A stretch of 33,292 nucleotides of DNA from Chloroflexota bacterium (GTDB lineage Bacteria; Chloroflexota; UBA6077; FW602-bin22; JAMCYS01): the NCBI GenBank assembly GCA_023473795.1, contig JAMCYS010000158.1, positions 1-33,292 of the forward strand. The letters run 5' to 3'. The position numbers and the translations under genes are program-made. Of the stretch, positions 1,799-9,864 are shown piece by piece (positions within the stretch are counted from its first letter, which is position 1; every line of letters begins with the position of its first letter). The notes under the pieces were generated by a model that saw nothing but the letters and a program-made list of their open reading frames with translations, was not told the origin of the DNA and made no database searches.

Positions 1799-4561
1799 TT
1801 GACGACGGCAGAAATGAAGTTGACGCCCGGCGAAACCGGCGATTGCCAGCGCTGTCTGGTTGACTTACGCGAACAGCTGGCCACTCTTCCCGGTGTGGAG
1901 CAGGTGAAGCTGGCGGGGGAGCCGGTCGAACTGGCAATTCGGTTCGACCCAACGCGGTTGGCGCCCCAAGATCTGCACGCGGCGGCGGACGAGTTCTCGA
2001 CGGCTCTGCGGCGACGCTATGCTCACGAGATAATCCGGGTGAGCGGGCTTGACTGCGCCGACTGCGCGGCAACGGTGGAGAGCGCCGTGGCGCGCCTGCC
2101 GGGCGTCGTGACCTCGAGGATCAATTTCGCCGCCGGCACCATCCTAGTCGAGTACGAGCGGGAGAAAGCCGACCGGCGGCAAATCCTGGCAGAGATCCAC
2201 AATCTCGGTTACGAGACGGGAGAACAGAAAGTTGGTGGCCAGGCCAGCTCGACGTTCTTGCTGAGCGGGCTCGACTGCGCCGACTGCGCCGTCTCGGTGG
2301 AGCGCAACCTCGCCAGCCTGCCGGGCGTGATCTCGGCCAAAGTCAACTTCGCGACGGCCACCCTCGAAGTGCGCCACTCTCCCACGGTGCGCGCCGACGA
2401 GATTGCCAGCGTGGTGGAAGCGAGTGGCTACGGGGCAGCGCCGGTCCGCCAGGGCCAGGCTGACAAACAGGCGTCGTTCTGGGTGCGCAACCGCCGGGCG
2501 GCCTTGACCGTCGCCGCGGGCGCGTCCTTGTTGCTGGGGCTGGCCGTGAGCTGGCTCCGGCTGCCCAACCCGGACTGGAGCGAGCCGGTGAGTCACGGAT
2601 TGCTGCTGTTGGCCACCGCTCTGGGGGGCTTCCACGTGGCCCGGGCCGGCCTGTATGGCCTCGTCCGCAGTCGCAGCCTGGATATGAACGTGCTGATGAC
2701 GGCGGCCGTCCTCGGCGCGCTGGCGCTGGGCCAGTGGGAGGAGGCGGCCACGGTCGTCGTCCTTTTCGCGCTCGGCAACAGCCTAGAGGGCTACACGATG
2801 GACCGGGCCCGCGGCGCCATTCGTTCGCTGCTCGCCCTGGCGCCCAACACAGCGCGCGTGCGCCGTGATGGGCGAGAGCAGACGGTGCCTGCCGAGCAGG
2901 TCGCGGTCGGCGAGACGGTGCTTGTCCGCCCGGGCGAGAAGGTTCCGGTCGACGGACTGGTGACGGCGGGCGTCTCCGGGGTCAACGAAGCGCCGGTGAC
3001 GGGCGAGTCGCTGCCGGTGGAGAAGGTGGCCGGCGACGAGGTCTACGCCGGCAGCCTCAACGAGCGCGGCTATTTGGAGGTCAGGGCCACGCGGCCCTAT
3101 GGCCAAAACACCATCTCGCGCATCGTCCACCTCGTAGAGGAGGCGCAGGGGCAGCGTGCCAGGTCACAGCGCTTTGTGGACGAGTTCTCACGCTACTACA
3201 CCCCGGCGGTGATGGCCGGAGCGCTGGCCGTGGCCACGGTGCCATACTTTCTGCTCGGTCAGCCGTTCGATCCCTGGTTCTACCGCGCCCTCGTCCTATT
3301 GATCATCGCCTGCCCCTGCGCGTTGGTGATCTCCACGCCCGTGGCTATCGTTTCCGCCATCGCCAGGGCGGCTCGCCTAGGGGTCTTGATCAAGGGCGGA
3401 GCCTATCTCGAGGCAGCCGGCCGCCTCAACGTCGTGGCTTTCGACAAGACCGGCACCCTCACCGTCGGCCGCCCCGAGGTGACCGACGTCATTGCCCTGA
3501 ACGGCCTGGACGAAGACGATCTCTTGCGCCTCGCAGGCCGCCTCGAAGAGCGCTCTGAGCACCCGCTGGCGGCGGCCATCTTACGCCGGGCCGACGGGCA
3601 CCGGCACGCGGACTCTTTGCCGCCGGTGGCGGACTTCGTCTCCCTGCCCGGGCGCGGCCTGCGCGCCCGTCTGGCAGACCAAACCTACTACCTTGGCAAC
3701 CAGCGGCTGCTGGCAGAGGTCGGCGTGCCATTGAACGGCAGTGCGGCGCGCATCGAGTCCCTGCTTGGCGAGGGCAAGACGGTGCTCCTCCTGGCCGACG
3801 AAGTGTCTCTGTTGGGCTACGTGGCCGTGGCGGACCGCCTCCGCCCCGGGGCCAAAGAGGCAGTGGCAGAGCTCCGGCAGTCCGGCGTGCGGCGCGTAGT
3901 GCTGCTAACCGGCGATCAAGAGGCTACGGCGCGGGCCATCGCCCAGGCGGCGGGGGTGGACGAGTACAAGGCCGGCTTGCTGCCGGACGAGAAAGTGGCG
4001 GCGATTCAGGACTTGCGCCGGCGCTATGGCGCGGTAGGGATGGTGGGGGACGGCGTGAACGACGCGCCCGCGCTGGCCGTGGCCAACGTGGGCATCGCCA
4101 TGGGGGCGGCCGGCAGTGACGTGGCCCTGGAGACGGCCGATGTGGCGCTGATGGCCGACGACCTGAGCAAGGTCGGCTTCGCGGTCGGCCTGGCTCGCGG
4201 CGCTCTGGACACGATACGACAGAATGTGGCGTTCGCTCTGGCCATAAAAGCGGTGTTCCTTGCCCTAGCCGTCCTTGGCGTGGCCACCCTCTGGCTGGCG
4301 ATCCTCGCCGACACCGGGGCCTCGCTGGTGGTGACTCTTAACGGGATGCGCTTGCTGGGCTACGGCCGGCGCTTTGCCAGGCCCAGCGCCGAACACCGCG
4401 AGGCCCATGCGGCTGTTGAGTGCACGGCAGAGCACTGCCATTGCGGCCACGAGCACGGCCACGACGGCGACGAGCGCGAAGAGGAAGAATCGGGGCTTGA
4501 AGCGTCGTCACTCGCCGAGGGTTCTCCCGAGCACGATCACGCCGGGCACACCCACAGTTAG
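1799..4561 (+). CDS. cadA: P1B-type heavy-metal ATPase (Zn/Cd/Pb exporter)
   Basis: It is a 920-residue ATP-driven metal exporter in the inner membrane. The N-terminus has three metal-binding modules: a degenerate one with CQRC (C16, C19) and two good HMA domains with GLDCADCA (C86/C89 and C160/C163). The core carries TGES (401-404), the intramembrane CPC (505-507), DKTGT with phosphorylated D549, the SEHP motif (H588-P589) and GDGVNDAP (750-757). The last membrane part has K817 and D838 (LADTG), which mark the P1B-2 Zn/Cd/Pb class rather than Cu. The tail (865-920) is rich in His, Cys, Asp and Glu (HCHCGHEHGHDGD and DHAGHTHS), a further metal-binding segment. The TTG start is supported by GGAGG 8 nt upstream. 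It lies in an operon with the CadC-type repressor, so metal induction is expected. Confidence 0.95.
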   Translation: MTTAEMKLTPGETGDCQRCLVDLREQLATLPGVEQVKLAGEPVELAIRFDPTRLAPQDLHAAADEFSTALRRRYAHEIIRVSGLDCADCAATVESAVARLPGVVTSRINFAAGTILVEYEREKADRRQILAEIHNLGYETGEQKVGGQASSTFLLSGLDCADCAVSVERNLASLPGVISAKVNFATATLEVRHSPTVRADEIASVVEASGYGAAPVRQGQADKQASFWVRNRRAALTVAAGASLLLGLAVSWLRLPNPDWSEPVSHGLLLLATALGGFHVARAGLYGLVRSRSLDMNVLMTAAVLGALALGQWEEAATVVVLFALGNSLEGYTMDRARGAIRSLLALAPNTARVRRDGREQTVPAEQVAVGETVLVRPGEKVPVDGLVTAGVSGVNEAPVTGESLPVEKVAGDEVYAGSLNERGYLEVRATRPYGQNTISRIVHLVEEAQGQRARSQRFVDEFSRYYTPAVMAGALAVATVPYFLLGQPFDPWFYRALVLLIIACPCALVISTPVAIVSAIARAARLGVLIKGGAYLEAAGRLNVVAFDKTGTLTVGRPEVTDVIALNGLDEDDLLRLAGRLEERSEHPLAAAILRRADGHRHADSLPPVADFVSLPGRGLRARLADQTYYLGNQRLLAEVGVPLNGSAARIESLLGEGKTVLLLADEVSLLGYVAVADRLRPGAKEAVAELRQSGVRRVVLLTGDQEATARAIAQAAGVDEYKAGLLPDEKVAAIQDLRRRYGAVGMVGDGVNDAPALAVANVGIAMGAAGSDVALETADVALMADDLSKVGFAVGLARGALDTIRQNVAFALAIKAVFLALAVLGVATLWLAILADTGASLVVTLNGMRLLGYGRRFARPSAEHREAHAAVECTAEHCHCGHEHGHDGDEREEEESGLEASSLAEGSPEHDHAGHTHS

Positions 4562-4675: not shown

Positions 4676-6007
4676 CTAGTCGGGGTTCGCCCGTGGCCCT
4701 CGTCTCAGCCCCATGAACAGCAGATACAGCAGCGCCGAGACGACCATTGTGGGCACCGAGGCGCCGATAAGGGTGAGATTGGTGCTCACGAGCCCGGATA
4801 CCCCTAAGGCTCCCAGCAGGCCGAACGGATCCTCGCCCGACAACCAGCGGAACACCAGCACGCCCACCACATAGGCCAAGACGGCGCGGAGATTGAGTCC
4901 CCGCCAGTACCAGTAGCGCCCGCGTCCGAACAGCGAGTTGACGTCGTAGCGACCCCGGCGCAGCAAGTAGTAGTCGGCGAGGACGATGCCGAAGTAAGGT
5001 ACGAACGTGGCGCCGATCCAGAGCAGGAAGGTCTGGTACTGGTCCATGGGAAACACCAGCGCCAGAGCGGTGCCGAGAAGGCCCCCGACGAGGATGCCCG
5101 AACGCTCACCTAGGCGCGGCGCGATGTTCAAGGCGGAAATGGCCGTCGAATACACGTCCATAAAGGCAGTGGTGAAGGTCGAGAGCAGCACGATCGACAG
5201 CGCCGGCAGGCCAAGGCCGAGCGCCAACATACTCGGCACAGGGTCGGGCTGACCGGTGGCGAGAGCGGCGACGAGGCCGACGAGGAACATCCAGCTACTG
5301 CCGACGAAGTAGCCCAGCCAGCTGCCGAAGAAACTAGACCCGGAGCGGCGGGCGAAGCGCGAGTAGTCGCCAATCAAAGGCAGCCAGGAGATCGGCAGGG
5401 CGATTGCCAGATCGAGACCGACGCCGAACGGCAGCTCACCCGTCGGCTGGCTGGCGAACACGTCGCTCACGCTCTTCCCGCCCAGCGCGGCGTAGGTGAG
5501 CGCTAGGCACAGCAAGAGCAGCAGGGCGACCGAGATGTTGTTGAGCCAGCGCCAGGTCTTCTGGCCCACCAAGGCCCAAACGGTGGTGACCAGACCGACC
5601 GCGATCTTCCAGGCCAGCAGATTGTCCCAGCCGAAAATGGCTCTACTTACTTCGTTGGCCGCCTGGCCCGCCAAAATGATCATCACGGCAGTCCAGCCTA
5701 CCAGCTGTACCACATTGAGGGCGGCGCCGATGTAGGATCCCCTCACGCCGAAGGCGGGCCGGGTGCCCACCATCGTCGGCACGCCGGTCTCGCTGCCGAT
5801 CACGCCGCCCAGAGCGAAGGGCGTGTTGCCGATGATGTGTCCCAAGACGATGGCCAGGAAAGCCAGCCCGAAGCCCAGCGGGGCGAGCAGGCCGCCGGTG
5901 AAGATCTCGGCGATAGAGATGGCGGCGCCGGACCAGAGGAGGAAGAAGTCCCAGCCGCCGTAGGTACGGTCGGCTGGGCGCACTGGAGCTATCGAGATCT
6001 CAGACAA
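4676..6007 (-). CDS. cytX: NCS1-family permease, CytX-like (hydroxymethylpyrimidine uptake)
   Basis: It is a 443-residue inner-membrane permease of the nucleobase:cation symporter-1 family. The N-terminal motif RTYGGWDFFLLWSGAAISIAE is typical of this family, followed by about 12 hydrophobic segments and conserved GNTPFALGG and GTRPAFGVRGSY stretches. The gene is preceded on its strand by a TPP riboswitch and a terminator. NCS1 permeases under TPP control (CytX) are known or predicted importers of the thiamine precursor HMP, which is the best substrate call. I chose the TTG at 6007 because AAAGGGG lies 8 nt upstream of it. The in-frame TTG at 6031 lies inside the terminator's T-tract and is unlikely. 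The alternative is a cytosine permease (CodB). Confidence 0.85.
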   Translation of the reverse strand: MSEISIAPVRPADRTYGGWDFFLLWSGAAISIAEIFTGGLLAPLGFGLAFLAIVLGHIIGNTPFALGGVIGSETGVPTMVGTRPAFGVRGSYIGAALNVVQLVGWTAVMIILAGQAANEVSRAIFGWDNLLAWKIAVGLVTTVWALVGQKTWRWLNNISVALLLLLCLALTYAALGGKSVSDVFASQPTGELPFGVGLDLAIALPISWLPLIGDYSRFARRSGSSFFGSWLGYFVGSSWMFLVGLVAALATGQPDPVPSMLALGLGLPALSIVLLSTFTTAFMDVYSTAISALNIAPRLGERSGILVGGLLGTALALVFPMDQYQTFLLWIGATFVPYFGIVLADYYLLRRGRYDVNSLFGRGRYWYWRGLNLRAVLAYVVGVLVFRWLSGEDPFGLLGALGVSGLVSTNLTLIGASVPTMVVSALLYLLFMGLRRGPRANPD

Positions 6008-6025
6008 GGCCAACACCCCTTTCGT

Positions 6026-6069
6026 GCACAAACAAAGCCGCCTGCCGCGAAGAGACAGCGGCAGGCGGC
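6026..6069 (-). terminator. Riboswitch-controlled intrinsic terminator
   Basis: On the minus strand a perfect 12-bp stem (6058-6069 with 6037-6048) with a 9-nt loop is followed by TTTGTTTGTG (6036-6027). It lies between the TPP aptamer and the permease start, so TPP binding most likely switches termination on. Confidence 0.85.
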
Positions 6070-6090
6070 GAACGTTGGCCCGGTCACCTG

Positions 6091-6178
6091 CGCCGCTTCC
6101 CTACGCTAGCATTACCTAGATCAGGTTCAAGGGGTCGGCGGGTTGCCCCGCCTCTCAGACTGGCTCCCCCAGCGGCTG
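6091..6178 (-). promoter_or_regulatory. TPP (thiamine) riboswitch, THI element
   Basis: Read on the minus strand, it has the conserved blocks in order: CTGAGAGG (6158-6151), GAACCTGATC (6128-6119) and TAATGCTAGCGTAGGGAA (6114-6097). The ends close into a P1 helix, GCCGCT (6176-6171... on the complement of agcggc) with AGCGGC (complement of 6092-6097). A terminator follows within 25 nt. This is the aptamer for thiamine pyrophosphate; it should repress the CytX-like permease when thiamine is plentiful. Confidence 0.93.
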
Positions 6179-6195
6179 GAGACTATTCAATTCCG

Positions 6196-6222: not shown

Positions 6223-6385
6223 GCCGTGTCAAGCAGACGACTAGGCAGCTCGCCCCTGGCGGCCGTTTGCCATGTCCTGCCCGCGACGGTTGACGTCCAA
6301 CGGAAGCCGATGCTATTCTTGCCCTGGGCGCCTTTGGCCGCGGACAACCCTACGGCTCCTTGGCCCGGCCCGGCGATTCCCTGGG

Positions 6386-7243
6386 GTGCGGCAGGAATTG
6401 GAAACGAATCGCGACCTCTCGCTGCCCCTGACGGAGGCGCCTCTGGCCTTCGTCGACGTTGAAACCACCGGTCTGACCGCCGCCCTGGGGGACCGCATCT
6501 GCGAGGTCGCGGTGGTGCTGGTCCGGGGCGACCGGGAGCTGTTCCGCTTCGCCACCCTCGTCAACCCACTCCGGCCCATTTCGCCGGGAGCGGCCGCCGT
6601 CAACGGACTTTGTGACGCATTGTTGCAGGATGCCCCGCTCTTTGCGGAGGTCGCCGGAGAGGTGCGGCAGGCTTTGTCTCTTGGCCTGCCGGTGGCGCAC
6701 AACGCGCCCTTCGACCTTTCGTTCCTCGCACCTGAGCTCGCGGCGGCAGGCCAAGAGCCCCCTGCTGCCGGGGCCGGCGACACCCTGGCGCTGGCACGCC
6801 GCCTGCTGCCACCCGGGCAGCGCTGTGGCTTGCCCGCTTTGGCCGGTTTCTTCCGCCTGTCCTCGCCTGGCGAAGCCCACCGAGCCCTGGCCGATGCCCT
6901 GATGACGCGGGCGCTGTTCTGGCGCCTGCTCGGCAAAGCGAGGCTCGGTCGCCGGACTACCCTCGCCGACCTACTGGAGCTGCAGGGCGGGCCCGCGCCG
7001 TGGCCCACCGCCGGCGACCGCAGCCGCTTATCCCTACCCCCGGAACTCGCGGGCGCGGTCGACGCCGGACGGCGAGTGCTGCTGGTCTACCTGTCTGCCA
7101 GCGGTCGGCGAACCAGCCGCCTGGTGGAGCTGAGCAGCGCTTACGCCTCCGGCGGCACCGTCTATCTGGTTGGCTTCTGCCACCTGCGCCAGGAGCAGCG
7201 TACCTTCCGCGTCGACCGCATCCTCGATTGGACCCCGGCCTAG
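6386..7243 (+). CDS. DnaQ-like 3'-5' exonuclease fused to a WYL-like domain
   Basis: It has 285 residues from the chosen GTG start. Residues ~19-178 are a DEDDh exonuclease domain: FVDVETTG (D24, E26), HNAPFDLSFL (D110) and HRALADA (H165, D170), so all five catalytic positions are present. Residues ~215-283 resemble a WYL domain, the ligand-binding module of many transcription and defence regulators, with RVLLVYLSASGRRTSRLVEL, then VYLVGFCHLRQEQRTFRVDRIL. The protein may degrade nucleic acid in response to a ligand (possibly ssDNA or a nucleotide) bound by the WYL part; this is inference. The start is uncertain: ATG 6272 would add 38 residues with no family likeness, and TTG 6398 is also possible. 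No obvious Shine-Dalgarno sequence decides it. The gene is flanked by unrelated genes and is probably monocistronic. Confidence 0.82.
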   Translation: MRQELETNRDLSLPLTEAPLAFVDVETTGLTAALGDRICEVAVVLVRGDRELFRFATLVNPLRPISPGAAAVNGLCDALLQDAPLFAEVAGEVRQALSLGLPVAHNAPFDLSFLAPELAAAGQEPPAAGAGDTLALARRLLPPGQRCGLPALAGFFRLSSPGEAHRALADALMTRALFWRLLGKARLGRRTTLADLLELQGGPAPWPTAGDRSRLSLPPELAGAVDAGRRVLLVYLSASGRRTSRLVELSSAYASGGTVYLVGFCHLRQEQRTFRVDRILDWTPA

Positions 7244-7293: not shown

Positions 7294-8058
7294 CTACCGG
7301 CCCAGCTGCCCCAGAATCCAACGGCCCGCGTTCATAAACAGCTGCGTCGCCCCGAACTCGACAATCTGCACGCCGCGATCGAGCAGCTTCTTGGCGCCAT
7401 CGGCGTCGTTCGTCAGCATCGCTACTGGCTTGTTTGCCGCGCGCGCGATCTTGATGATCCGGTCGATATGCTCCTGCACTATGGGCAACTGCACCTGCGC
7501 CGGCACGCCTAACGACTGAGAGAGGTCGTTGTGGCCGATCCAGACCACGTCCACGCCGGGCACGGACACTATCTCTTCCAGGTTCTCCACGCCCTTGGCG
7601 CTCTCGATCAAGGTCATCAGCAGAACGGCGGCGTTAGCCTGCTTGATCAGTTCGGGCAGCGGACCCAGCGAGCCGTAGCGCGCCCAGCGGGAGCCTGCCA
7701 TGCCGCGCTCGCCCTCGGGGTAATAACGCATGGCCTTGGCGGCCGCCTCGGCCTCGGCGCGACTCTCGATGTGCGGTACCAGCACCCCCAGCACCCCGGC
7801 GTCGAGCAGGCGCAGGACCTCGTGGAAGGCGTTGGTTGGCGTCCGGGCGAAGGGAGTGATGCCGCTTGCCTCGGCGGCGCGCACCATCTGTTCGGCCGCT
7901 ACCGGGTCCATCGGCCCGTGCTCGCAGTCGATGCGCACGAAGTCGAAGCCGGCGTAGGCGCATAGCTCCACGGTCGCCGGCGAGGGAAAAGTGAGGCCCA
8001 CGCCGAAGATTGGCTTACCCGCCCGCAGGCGCTCCTTGGCCGCATTGGTGATGACCAT
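7294..8058 (-). CDS. HpcH/HpaI-family class II aldolase
   Basis: It is a 254-residue metal-dependent aldolase acting on pyruvate-derived 2-keto acids, like 4-hydroxy-2-oxoheptanedioate or 2-keto-3-deoxyglucarate aldolase. The TIM-barrel motifs are FDFVRIDCEHGPMD with catalytic His47, FARTP with Arg72 (binds pyruvate), and the metal ligands Glu152 (LIES) and Asp178 (GHND). GVLVPHIES and RYYPEGERGM are family hallmarks. The ATG is preceded by AGGAGG (minus strand, in ccaggaggactagg), about 9 nt away, and by a good promoter. The exact substrate cannot be read from sequence; no other pathway gene is next to it. Confidence 0.9.
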   Translation of the reverse strand: MVITNAAKERLRAGKPIFGVGLTFPSPATVELCAYAGFDFVRIDCEHGPMDPVAAEQMVRAAEASGITPFARTPTNAFHEVLRLLDAGVLGVLVPHIESRAEAEAAAKAMRYYPEGERGMAGSRWARYGSLGPLPELIKQANAAVLLMTLIESAKGVENLEEIVSVPGVDVVWIGHNDLSQSLGVPAQVQLPIVQEHIDRIIKIARAANKPVAMLTNDADGAKKLLDRGVQIVEFGATQLFMNAGRWILGQLGR

Positions 8059-8093
8059 TTACCTAGTCCTCCTGGTTGCTTGACTCGCCGGCC

Positions 8094-8123
8094 ATTATAG
8101 GCGAGCCCAGCGCCAGACGGCAA
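8094..8123 (-). promoter_or_regulatory. Promoter of the HpcH/HpaI aldolase gene
   Basis: On the minus strand, the -35 TTGCCG (8123-8118), an 18-bp spacer and the -10 TATAAT (8099-8094) put the transcription start near 8087, about 30 nt before the ATG. Confidence 0.65.
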
Positions 8124-8183
8124 GGCTCGCGGCGCCGTCTCCGGCCGCGGCTTGCCGCTTATTAGCTATTTGGCACGGCAAAG

Positions 8184-8189
8184 TATAAT
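8184..8189 (+). promoter_or_regulatory. -10 box for the DUF302 gene
   Basis: A perfect TATAAT in an AT-rich island lies 58 nt before the ATG at 8248. I see no convincing -35 at the usual distance. Confidence 0.45.
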
Positions 8190-8247
8190 TGACTATAGGC
8201 CCCGTCAGTGGCGGGTTACGGCTGGCAAGTTCCGGAGGAGATGTGCC

Positions 8248-8652
8248 ATGATCGAGAGAACGGCCTACGGGTTTGGAGTCAAGACCAAGCTGCCCTATGA
8301 ACAAGCCATAGAGCAGACCAAGGCGGCGTTGAAAGAGCAGGGCTTCGGCGTGCTCTGCGAGATCGACGTCCGCAAGACGATGAAGGAGAAGCTGGACGCG
8401 GACTTTCGCCCCTACGTCATCCTTGGCGCCTGCAATCCGCCCCTGGCCCACCAGGCGTTGACGGCGGACCTCGATCTGGGGCTGCTGCTGCCCTGCAACC
8501 TAGTGGTATACGACGCGGAGGGCGGCGCGGTCGTCAAGGCGATGGATCCCGAGCCTGTACTGGGCATCGTTGGCAATGCGAATCTGGTTCCCGTGGCCAC
8601 CGAGGTCAAGTCCCGTCTGGAAAAGGTAATCAAACAAGTAGCAGGCCTGTAG
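8248..8652 (+). CDS. DUF302 family protein
   Basis: It is a 134-residue small soluble protein with the DUF302 pattern: an N-terminal beta strand and helix (GFGVKTKLPYEQAIEQTKAA), GFGVLCEIDVRKTMKEKL, YVILGACNPPLAHQAL, and LGLLLPCNLVVYDAEGG. The conserved Cys residues in GACNPP and LLPCN are present. Its function is unknown; the fold is beta-lactoglobulin-like in solved members, and roles in redox or metal stress have been suggested for relatives. There is no signal peptide. The start at 8248 is chosen because GGAGGAG (8234-8240) lies 7 nt upstream. An earlier in-frame ATG at 8152 lies upstream of the -10 box and is not credible. A terminator-like hairpin follows. Confidence 0.88.
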   Translation: MIERTAYGFGVKTKLPYEQAIEQTKAALKEQGFGVLCEIDVRKTMKEKLDADFRPYVILGACNPPLAHQALTADLDLGLLLPCNLVVYDAEGGAVVKAMDPEPVLGIVGNANLVPVATEVKSRLEKVIKQVAGL

Positions 8653-8820: not shown

Positions 8821-9864
8821 ATGTCTCGCTCAGCCATTGCTCTTGCCCTAGCAGTCGTGCTCGTCGCAGCCGTAGTCATAGGCACCGGCGCCTATGTCCC
8901 GGGTGCCAGCCCCGATGCCGTGGAGGACCCTAGGCCCGAGGCAGTTCTGTCCAGCCCAACGGCCGAGCCCACGGCCACTATTAGGCCCACCAGCACGGCC
9001 ACTGCCCTGCCGACGGCGACGGCTACCGTTACGGCGACCGCCAGTGCCAGGCCGACCGCTACGGTCGCTCCCGGCGCCTCGGCCAAGGAGGCCCTGTACC
9101 GTGAGATCGTCACTCAGTACCTGGGCAACCTACCGGGAACCTTCGGCGTAGCCATCAAAGACCTCAAGACTGGTGAAACCGTTCTCATCAACCCTGACCG
9201 ACCCTTTCCTGCCGCCAGCCTCTATAAGCTCTCCTTGACGTACGAGGTGCTGCGCGAGGCCAAGGCAGGCAATTTCTCGCTCAAGACGCTAATGGACATA
9301 ACCGAAGCCGACATGGCCGAGGCCGAGTTCGATGAGAAACTGGTGCCTGGAATGTCGGTGACTATCGATCGCGGCCTTTGGTTCCTCATCACTCTCAGTA
9401 GCAACAGCGCCTCCGCGGCCCTGCAGCACTACGTGAACTGGGCCGATATGAACGAGGGCATGCGCGAGCTGGGTCTGGTGAACACCCGCATGGCAGGCGA
9501 TCCGACCGAACAGAAGTATGGCGACTGGCGCGACGAGCTCGCCTCCACCATTCCCCGCGAAATGCTGCGCTTCTTCGAAACGCTCTACCACCAGCAGTTG
9601 CTCGATCAGGCGTCCAGCGAGGAGATGATGTACCTGCTCCGCCACCAACAGATCGGCGATAGGCTATCGTATAACCTGCCAGAGGGCGTAGTAATGGCCC
9701 ACAAGACCGGCAACCTCTCGGGCACCATCAACGACGCGGGCATCATCTTCGGTCCCGAGACCGACCTGTACGTCGGCATGCTTTCCCAGGGTGCCGACTA
9801 CGAGCAGACCACTCAGGCCTTACGCGATCTAGGGAGGGCGCTGTACGACGCGGCCAATGAATAG
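8821..9864 (+). CDS. Secreted serine hydrolase of the class A beta-lactamase fold
   Basis: It has 347 residues. Residues 1-25 are a signal peptide or membrane anchor, 45-85 a Thr/Pro/Ala linker (TATATVTATASARPTATV type), and 90-347 a beta-lactamase-like domain. Motifs are S133-L-Y-K136 (nucleophile and general base), S193-S-N195 in place of SDN, and K295-T-G297. The region that should hold the omega-loop ExxLN (Glu166 of class A enzymes) reads MAGDPTEQKYGDWRDELASTIP, with no clear match. Deacylation of beta-lactams may therefore be poor. It could be a peptidoglycan-active hydrolase or a divergent lactamase. GGAGGA lies 10 nt upstream of the ATG; a terminator follows. Confidence 0.87.
   Translation: MSRSAIALALAVVLVAAVVIGTGAYVPGASPDAVEDPRPEAVLSSPTAEPTATIRPTSTATALPTATATVTATASARPTATVAPGASAKEALYREIVTQYLGNLPGTFGVAIKDLKTGETVLINPDRPFPAASLYKLSLTYEVLREAKAGNFSLKTLMDITEADMAEAEFDEKLVPGMSVTIDRGLWFLITLSSNSASAALQHYVNWADMNEGMRELGLVNTRMAGDPTEQKYGDWRDELASTIPREMLRFFETLYHQQLLDQASSEEMMYLLRHQQIGDRLSYNLPEGVVMAHKTGNLSGTINDAGIIFGPETDLYVGMLSQGADYEQTTQALRDLGRALYDAANE

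Follow-up and report, generated by a model that had tools for sequence, protein, structure and literature searches.

We identified a gene in the window, the whole 33,292-nucleotide stretch of Chloroflexota DNA that was analysed, that encodes a DnaQ-type 3'-5' exonuclease carrying a C-terminal WYL domain. The enzyme probably acts on single-stranded DNA (ssDNA), with the WYL domain serving as a second ssDNA-binding site that tethers the strand, gates the nuclease or does both, and its role would lie in DNA maintenance rather than in dedicated defence. The fusion defines a conserved family, as both domains are present at equal spacing in all 21 aligned homologues. This fusion type is not new and has been known since Makarova et al. 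(2014; PMC4012209), who mention in one line of main text a WYL domain fused to a '3'->5' exoRNase'. Those proteins likewise combine a WYL domain and a 3'-5' exonuclease in a single protein and likely belong to the same family as the window protein. We found no functional study of an exonuclease-WYL protein in the open-licence literature.

The gene and its parts are as follows.

6386..7243, + strand: exonuclease-WYL gene, 285 amino acids, GTG start; an in-frame upstream ATG at 6272 is a possible alternative
6449..6919, + strand: DEDDh (DnaQ/RNase_T) exonuclease domain, residues 22-178 (Pfam accession PF00929, E-value 1.6e-23; alignment)
6950..7042, + strand: linker, about 20-40 residues long, in which the segments TLxDLLE and LPxEL are conserved (21-member alignment)
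7043..7234, + strand: WYL domain, residues 220-283 (Pfam accession PF13280, E-value 2.3e-14; structural model and Foldseek)
6290..6319, + strand: candidate sigma-70-like promoter site, TTGACG-18-TATTCT, matching 9 of 12 consensus positions and proposed by consensus match only

The start codon is not certain. Initiation at ATG 6272 would give a protein of 323 rather than 285 amino acids. We favour GTG 6386 because the N-termini of aligned homologues fall near residues 1-15 of that version and because of the promoter-like site at 6290-6319 (0.1 such sites expected in shuffled sequence). The spacing between the two domains is the same in all members, both in the 21-member alignment and in the domain coordinates of 71 loci, and AlphaFold2 models the whole 285-residue protein with a pLDDT of 90.3 and a pTM of 0.77. 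A Pfam scan of this protein returned RNase_T and WYL and no third family; it found no helix-turn-helix (HTH) or WCX domain, and the C-terminus follows directly after the WYL domain. Its domain content is not that of an HTH-WYL(-WCX) transcription regulator.

The exonuclease domain matches RNase_T at 84.5 bits (curated cut-off 24), with coordinates that were reproduced by a profile search of its own genome. It contains, in order, D24, E26, D110, H165 and D170, a complete DEDDh site made up of four metal-binding acids and a general-base histidine. The initial annotation had described exactly this site from the sequence, and the profile match bears it out. Among 44 distinct family members, D24, E26 and D110 never vary; 43 members have D170 and 35 have H165. 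The nearest exonucleases in both sequence and fold are the exonuclease domains of PolC, DinG and the Pol III epsilon subunit, which a structure search with the whole-protein model also recovers; the PRK07883 family is among the best sequence matches as well, and RNase T and ERI1 are among the structural relatives. Membership in NCBIfam exonuclease equivalogs was considered and rejected, as scores fall far under their cut-offs. The closest DEDDh domains (SaDinG, PolC, Pol III epsilon and PRK07883) have a helicase, a polymerase or some other long C-terminal region attached to them, not a WYL domain.

The WYL domain scores 53.6 bits (curated cut-off 21.8) and includes the segments VYLVGFCHLR (residues 259-268) and RTFRVDRI (residues 272-279), from which a C-terminal WYL domain had first been proposed. 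Profile and structure searches now agree with that proposal. The match is not a chance one, because all 21 aligned homologues individually match both Pfam families. Modelled alone (AlphaFold2 pLDDT 89.7), the WYL part is predicted to form an Sm-like SH3 barrel, and Foldseek matches it to the known WYL proteins PafBC, BrxR, CapW and DriD, several of which have been solved with ssDNA (including PafBC, DriD and CapW). These proteins and the window protein are thus predicted to have the WYL fold and an ssDNA-binding pocket in common. They differ in that PafBC, DriD, CapW and BrxR carry an HTH, usually with a WCX, and regulate transcription, whereas the window protein has neither and has a nuclease instead.

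Residue mapping places Y235, R245, Y260, C265, R268, R272, F274, R275 and R278 in the pocket, with basic residues and a cysteine (R245, C265, R268, R272, R275 and R278) lining the ligand groove. In Mycobacterium smegmatis PafB, the substitutions R181A, Y196A, R181A/R204A/R208A and R211A/R214A abolish ssDNA binding (PMC11804915). A HMMER alignment pairs PafB R181, Y196, R204, R208, R211 and R214 with R245, Y260, R268, R272, R275 and R278 of the window protein, identical at six of six positions. In the Deferribacter Pif1-WYL protein DdPif1-WYL, five arginines have been modelled on ssDNA (R464, R491, R495, R498 and R501; PMC9964779); they correspond to R245, R268, R272, R275 and R278, and all five are present. 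A scripted mapping agreed with these assignments apart from a one-column offset (79 match columns counted, 80 in the profile); the register is settled by the matching residue letters. Across the 44 distinct members, Y235, R245, C265 and F274 are invariant, R268 is kept in 42 and R272 in 43, and position 278 is R or K in all. Y260 (28 of 44) and R275 (25 of 44) are more variable. This conservation agrees with the WYL pattern of basic residues and a cysteine given by Makarova et al. (2014; PMC4012209). As the window protein keeps every pocket residue that PafB needs, the likely ligand of its WYL domain is ssDNA or another nucleic acid.

Two characterized proteins serve as the closest working models for how the domains might cooperate. 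First, Pif1-WYL (Thermotoga elfii and Deferribacter desulfuricans; PDB 8BNV) is likewise a DNA enzyme with a single C-terminal WYL domain and no HTH, and shares the same five arginines; it carries an SF1 helicase where the window protein has an exonuclease. Its WYL domain is an ssDNA-binding module that is required for helicase activity (PMC9964779). Second, the N-terminal exonuclease domain of SaDinG degrades ssDNA in the 3'-5' direction, with the strand held by an adjacent domain (PMC12345164). By analogy with these, the WYL domain would hold an ssDNA strand in its arginine groove and feed the strand's 3' end to the two-metal active site, or keep it there. Nuclease activity may also depend on the presence of ssDNA, with the WYL domain as the switch, and such gating is plausible. 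In the cell, the enzyme would trim ssDNA tails, gaps or fragments as part of DNA maintenance. A tethered single-strand exonuclease is probable because the WYL domain retains every residue known to grip ssDNA. Against this reading stand the variability of Y260 and R275 elsewhere in the family; the absence of H165 from nine of the 14 members of one Chloroflexota family, a poor fit to a simple active nuclease there; the ability of the WYL protein RspWYL1 to bind RNA; and neighbouring genes that give no pointer to DNA repair.

We infer DNA rather than RNA as the substrate. The protein could instead process RNA, as an oligoribonuclease or as a 3'-5' exoribonuclease like RNase T, with RNA bound by the Sm-like WYL domain in the way that RspWYL1 binds it for Cas13d. 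RNA is a possible ligand because RspWYL1, one characterized WYL protein, binds single-stranded RNA; in addition, Makarova et al. (2014; PMC4012209) termed the fused nuclease a 3'->5' exoRNase, and the structural relatives include RNase T and ERI1. However, the sequences that it matches best belong to DNA enzymes, namely DinG, PolC, Pol III epsilon and the PRK07883 family, the WYL pocket is nearest to that of PafBC, which is activated by ssDNA (PMC11804915), and the WYL protein SiwR does not bind single-stranded RNA. We consider a role in RNA processing unlikely.

A scan of 84,980 species genomes, together with a search of relatives, identified full-length homologues in Chloroflexota, Myxococcota, other proteobacterial lines, Cyanobacteriota and Armatimonadota. 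Full-length matches (E-value of at most 8.2e-79) are present in 47 of 400 Chloroflexota genomes. By Chloroflexota family, the carriers make up 19 of 23 listed genomes in f26, 7 of 7 in f34 and 14 of 24 in f20, shares that are upper estimates because 47 genomes without a match are absent from the listing. Within its own order, the window genome shares the fusion with one other genome (G004) only. Neither a full-length match nor any protein with both domains was found in viral contigs (IMG/VR), phages or plasmids; the virus, phage and plasmid sets gave single partial matches that cover more than 80% of the query but stop short of the final stretch of the WYL domain. An origin in mobile elements was rejected for want of a full-length match in these sets, and the gene is chromosomal.

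In a tree of the exonuclease domain, 40 of the 44 fused members are grouped with good support in a single set, along with two unfused rows, one of them truncated by its contig end, and the window gene sits on a long branch beside family f20. Four divergent fused members (from Cyanobacteriota, Armatimonadota and G004) lie outside the main set. Several independent fusions were considered on that account and set aside, as an AU test does not reject a single clade of fused members (p = 0.13); a single origin of the fusion is therefore possible. One seemingly unfused protein (L010) is truncated by the contig end. In an Elusimicrobiota locus (L014, near 8001-8576), we observed a protein of about 200 amino acids that lacks a WYL domain and branches within the fused group. 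Its position in the tree suggests that it may represent a true loss of the domain.

In the window, the exonuclease-WYL gene stands by itself, flanked on one side by a divergent cytX-like permease gene and on the other by a convergent HpcH/HpaI aldolase gene. Nearby features are listed below.

1799-4561, + strand: heavy-metal P-type ATPase with two N-terminal HMA domains
4676-6031, - strand: CytX-like hydroxymethylpyrimidine permease, divergent from the exonuclease-WYL gene
6081-6180, - strand: TPP riboswitch (RF00059, 71.3 bits), upstream of the CytX-like permease
8821-9864, + strand: serine beta-lactamase fold protein (Beta-lactamase2), far under the NCBIfam class A cut-off

Across 32 loci the neighbours are ordinary and differ by lineage. 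A gene for an SH3-repeat membrane protein lies directly upstream in nine Chloroflexales loci (including L003, L008, L215, L216, L225, L226, L227 and L229), in some of which it shares 4 bases with the exonuclease-WYL gene. In f34 the recurrent neighbour is a YbaK-like protein, recognized by eye. Three proteobacterial or myxococcal loci (L006, L009 and L011) have an upstream gene on the same strand for an unannotated protein of about 1000 amino acids, with a 4-base overlap in two of them. A Pfam scan of 102 flanking proteins found families that include SH3, PAS, TPR and transporter proteins, and PADLOC returned scattered single matches to the same proteins, such as methyltransferases, with 'mad3' in three proteins. 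Among these 102 proteins, Pfam and PADLOC together revealed no recurrent defence partner and no recurrent DNA repair partner. We rejected the assignment of these loci to a defence island, as the flanking proteins show no theme.

These observations bear on a proposed link of the fusion to phage defence, in which the WYL domain would sense phage-induced nucleotides or ssDNA and the exonuclease would destroy phage or host nucleic acid. WYL and DEDDh domains are both found in CRISPR-associated proteins and in PADLOC models, and the WYL regulators BrxR and CapW act in defence. Against such a ligand-gated defence nuclease, no defence family recurs beyond scattered single PADLOC matches, the neighbours are ordinary and lineage-specific, no full-length copy occurs in viral contigs, phages or plasmids, and the gene is kept widely in several Chloroflexota families, being present in most listed genomes of two of them. 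The link to defence made in the initial annotation is thus not supported by the neighbourhood survey that it had suggested, and we regard this function as improbable.

The fusion could also act on the signalling ligand itself, binding and degrading the ssDNA that activates HTH-WYL regulators and so resetting the response, as ring nucleases do with cyclic oligoadenylate. The ligand groove is the same as that of PafBC, and addition of an ssDNA exonuclease in vitro turns PafBC-dependent transcription off (PMC11804915). The sole other WYL protein of the window genome is an HTH-WYL regulator; this co-occurrence means little because such regulators are very common, and in the surveyed loci the fusion shows no gene linkage with one. 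Such quenching seems quite improbable. Equally so is its extension to the whole family, which would make these proteins counterparts of the CRISPR ring nucleases that terminate a signal by capturing regulator-activating ssDNA in the WYL groove, with the members that have no catalytic histidine acting as pure ssDNA sinks.

Those members all belong to Chloroflexota family f20, in which H165 is replaced by R or S in nine of 14 proteins (L083, L084, L085, L108, L110, L112, L116, L127 and L128) and D170 by G in a further one (L122). The nine retain D24, E26, D110, D170 and the WYL pocket, and a fewest-changes count places the loss of H165 at two points on the tree. Their WYL domains are 80% alike and their exonuclease domains 70%, values nearly the same as in the f20 members that keep the histidine (77% and 69%). 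The simplest reading, a tentative one, is that they would have reduced catalysis and keep ssDNA binding. A reading in which part of the family binds ssDNA without catalysis or with altered chemistry, as the H165 and D170 replacements and the greater conservation of the WYL domain in f20 could suggest, is highly improbable, since the four acids kept in the His-less members suggest metal binding and perhaps residual activity, and the window protein, with its complete active site, stands outside this reading altogether.

WYL domains have been studied mostly as ssDNA sensors of transcription factors. For the preferred reading, an ssDNA exonuclease whose WYL domain acts as tether or gate, the fusion is a compact system, a single chain, in which to ask whether binding by a WYL domain does no more than tether ssDNA or activates a partner domain, and the His-less f20 family provides a natural contrast to members with a complete site. 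The fusion also bears on whether cells remove an ssDNA signal by such enzymes.
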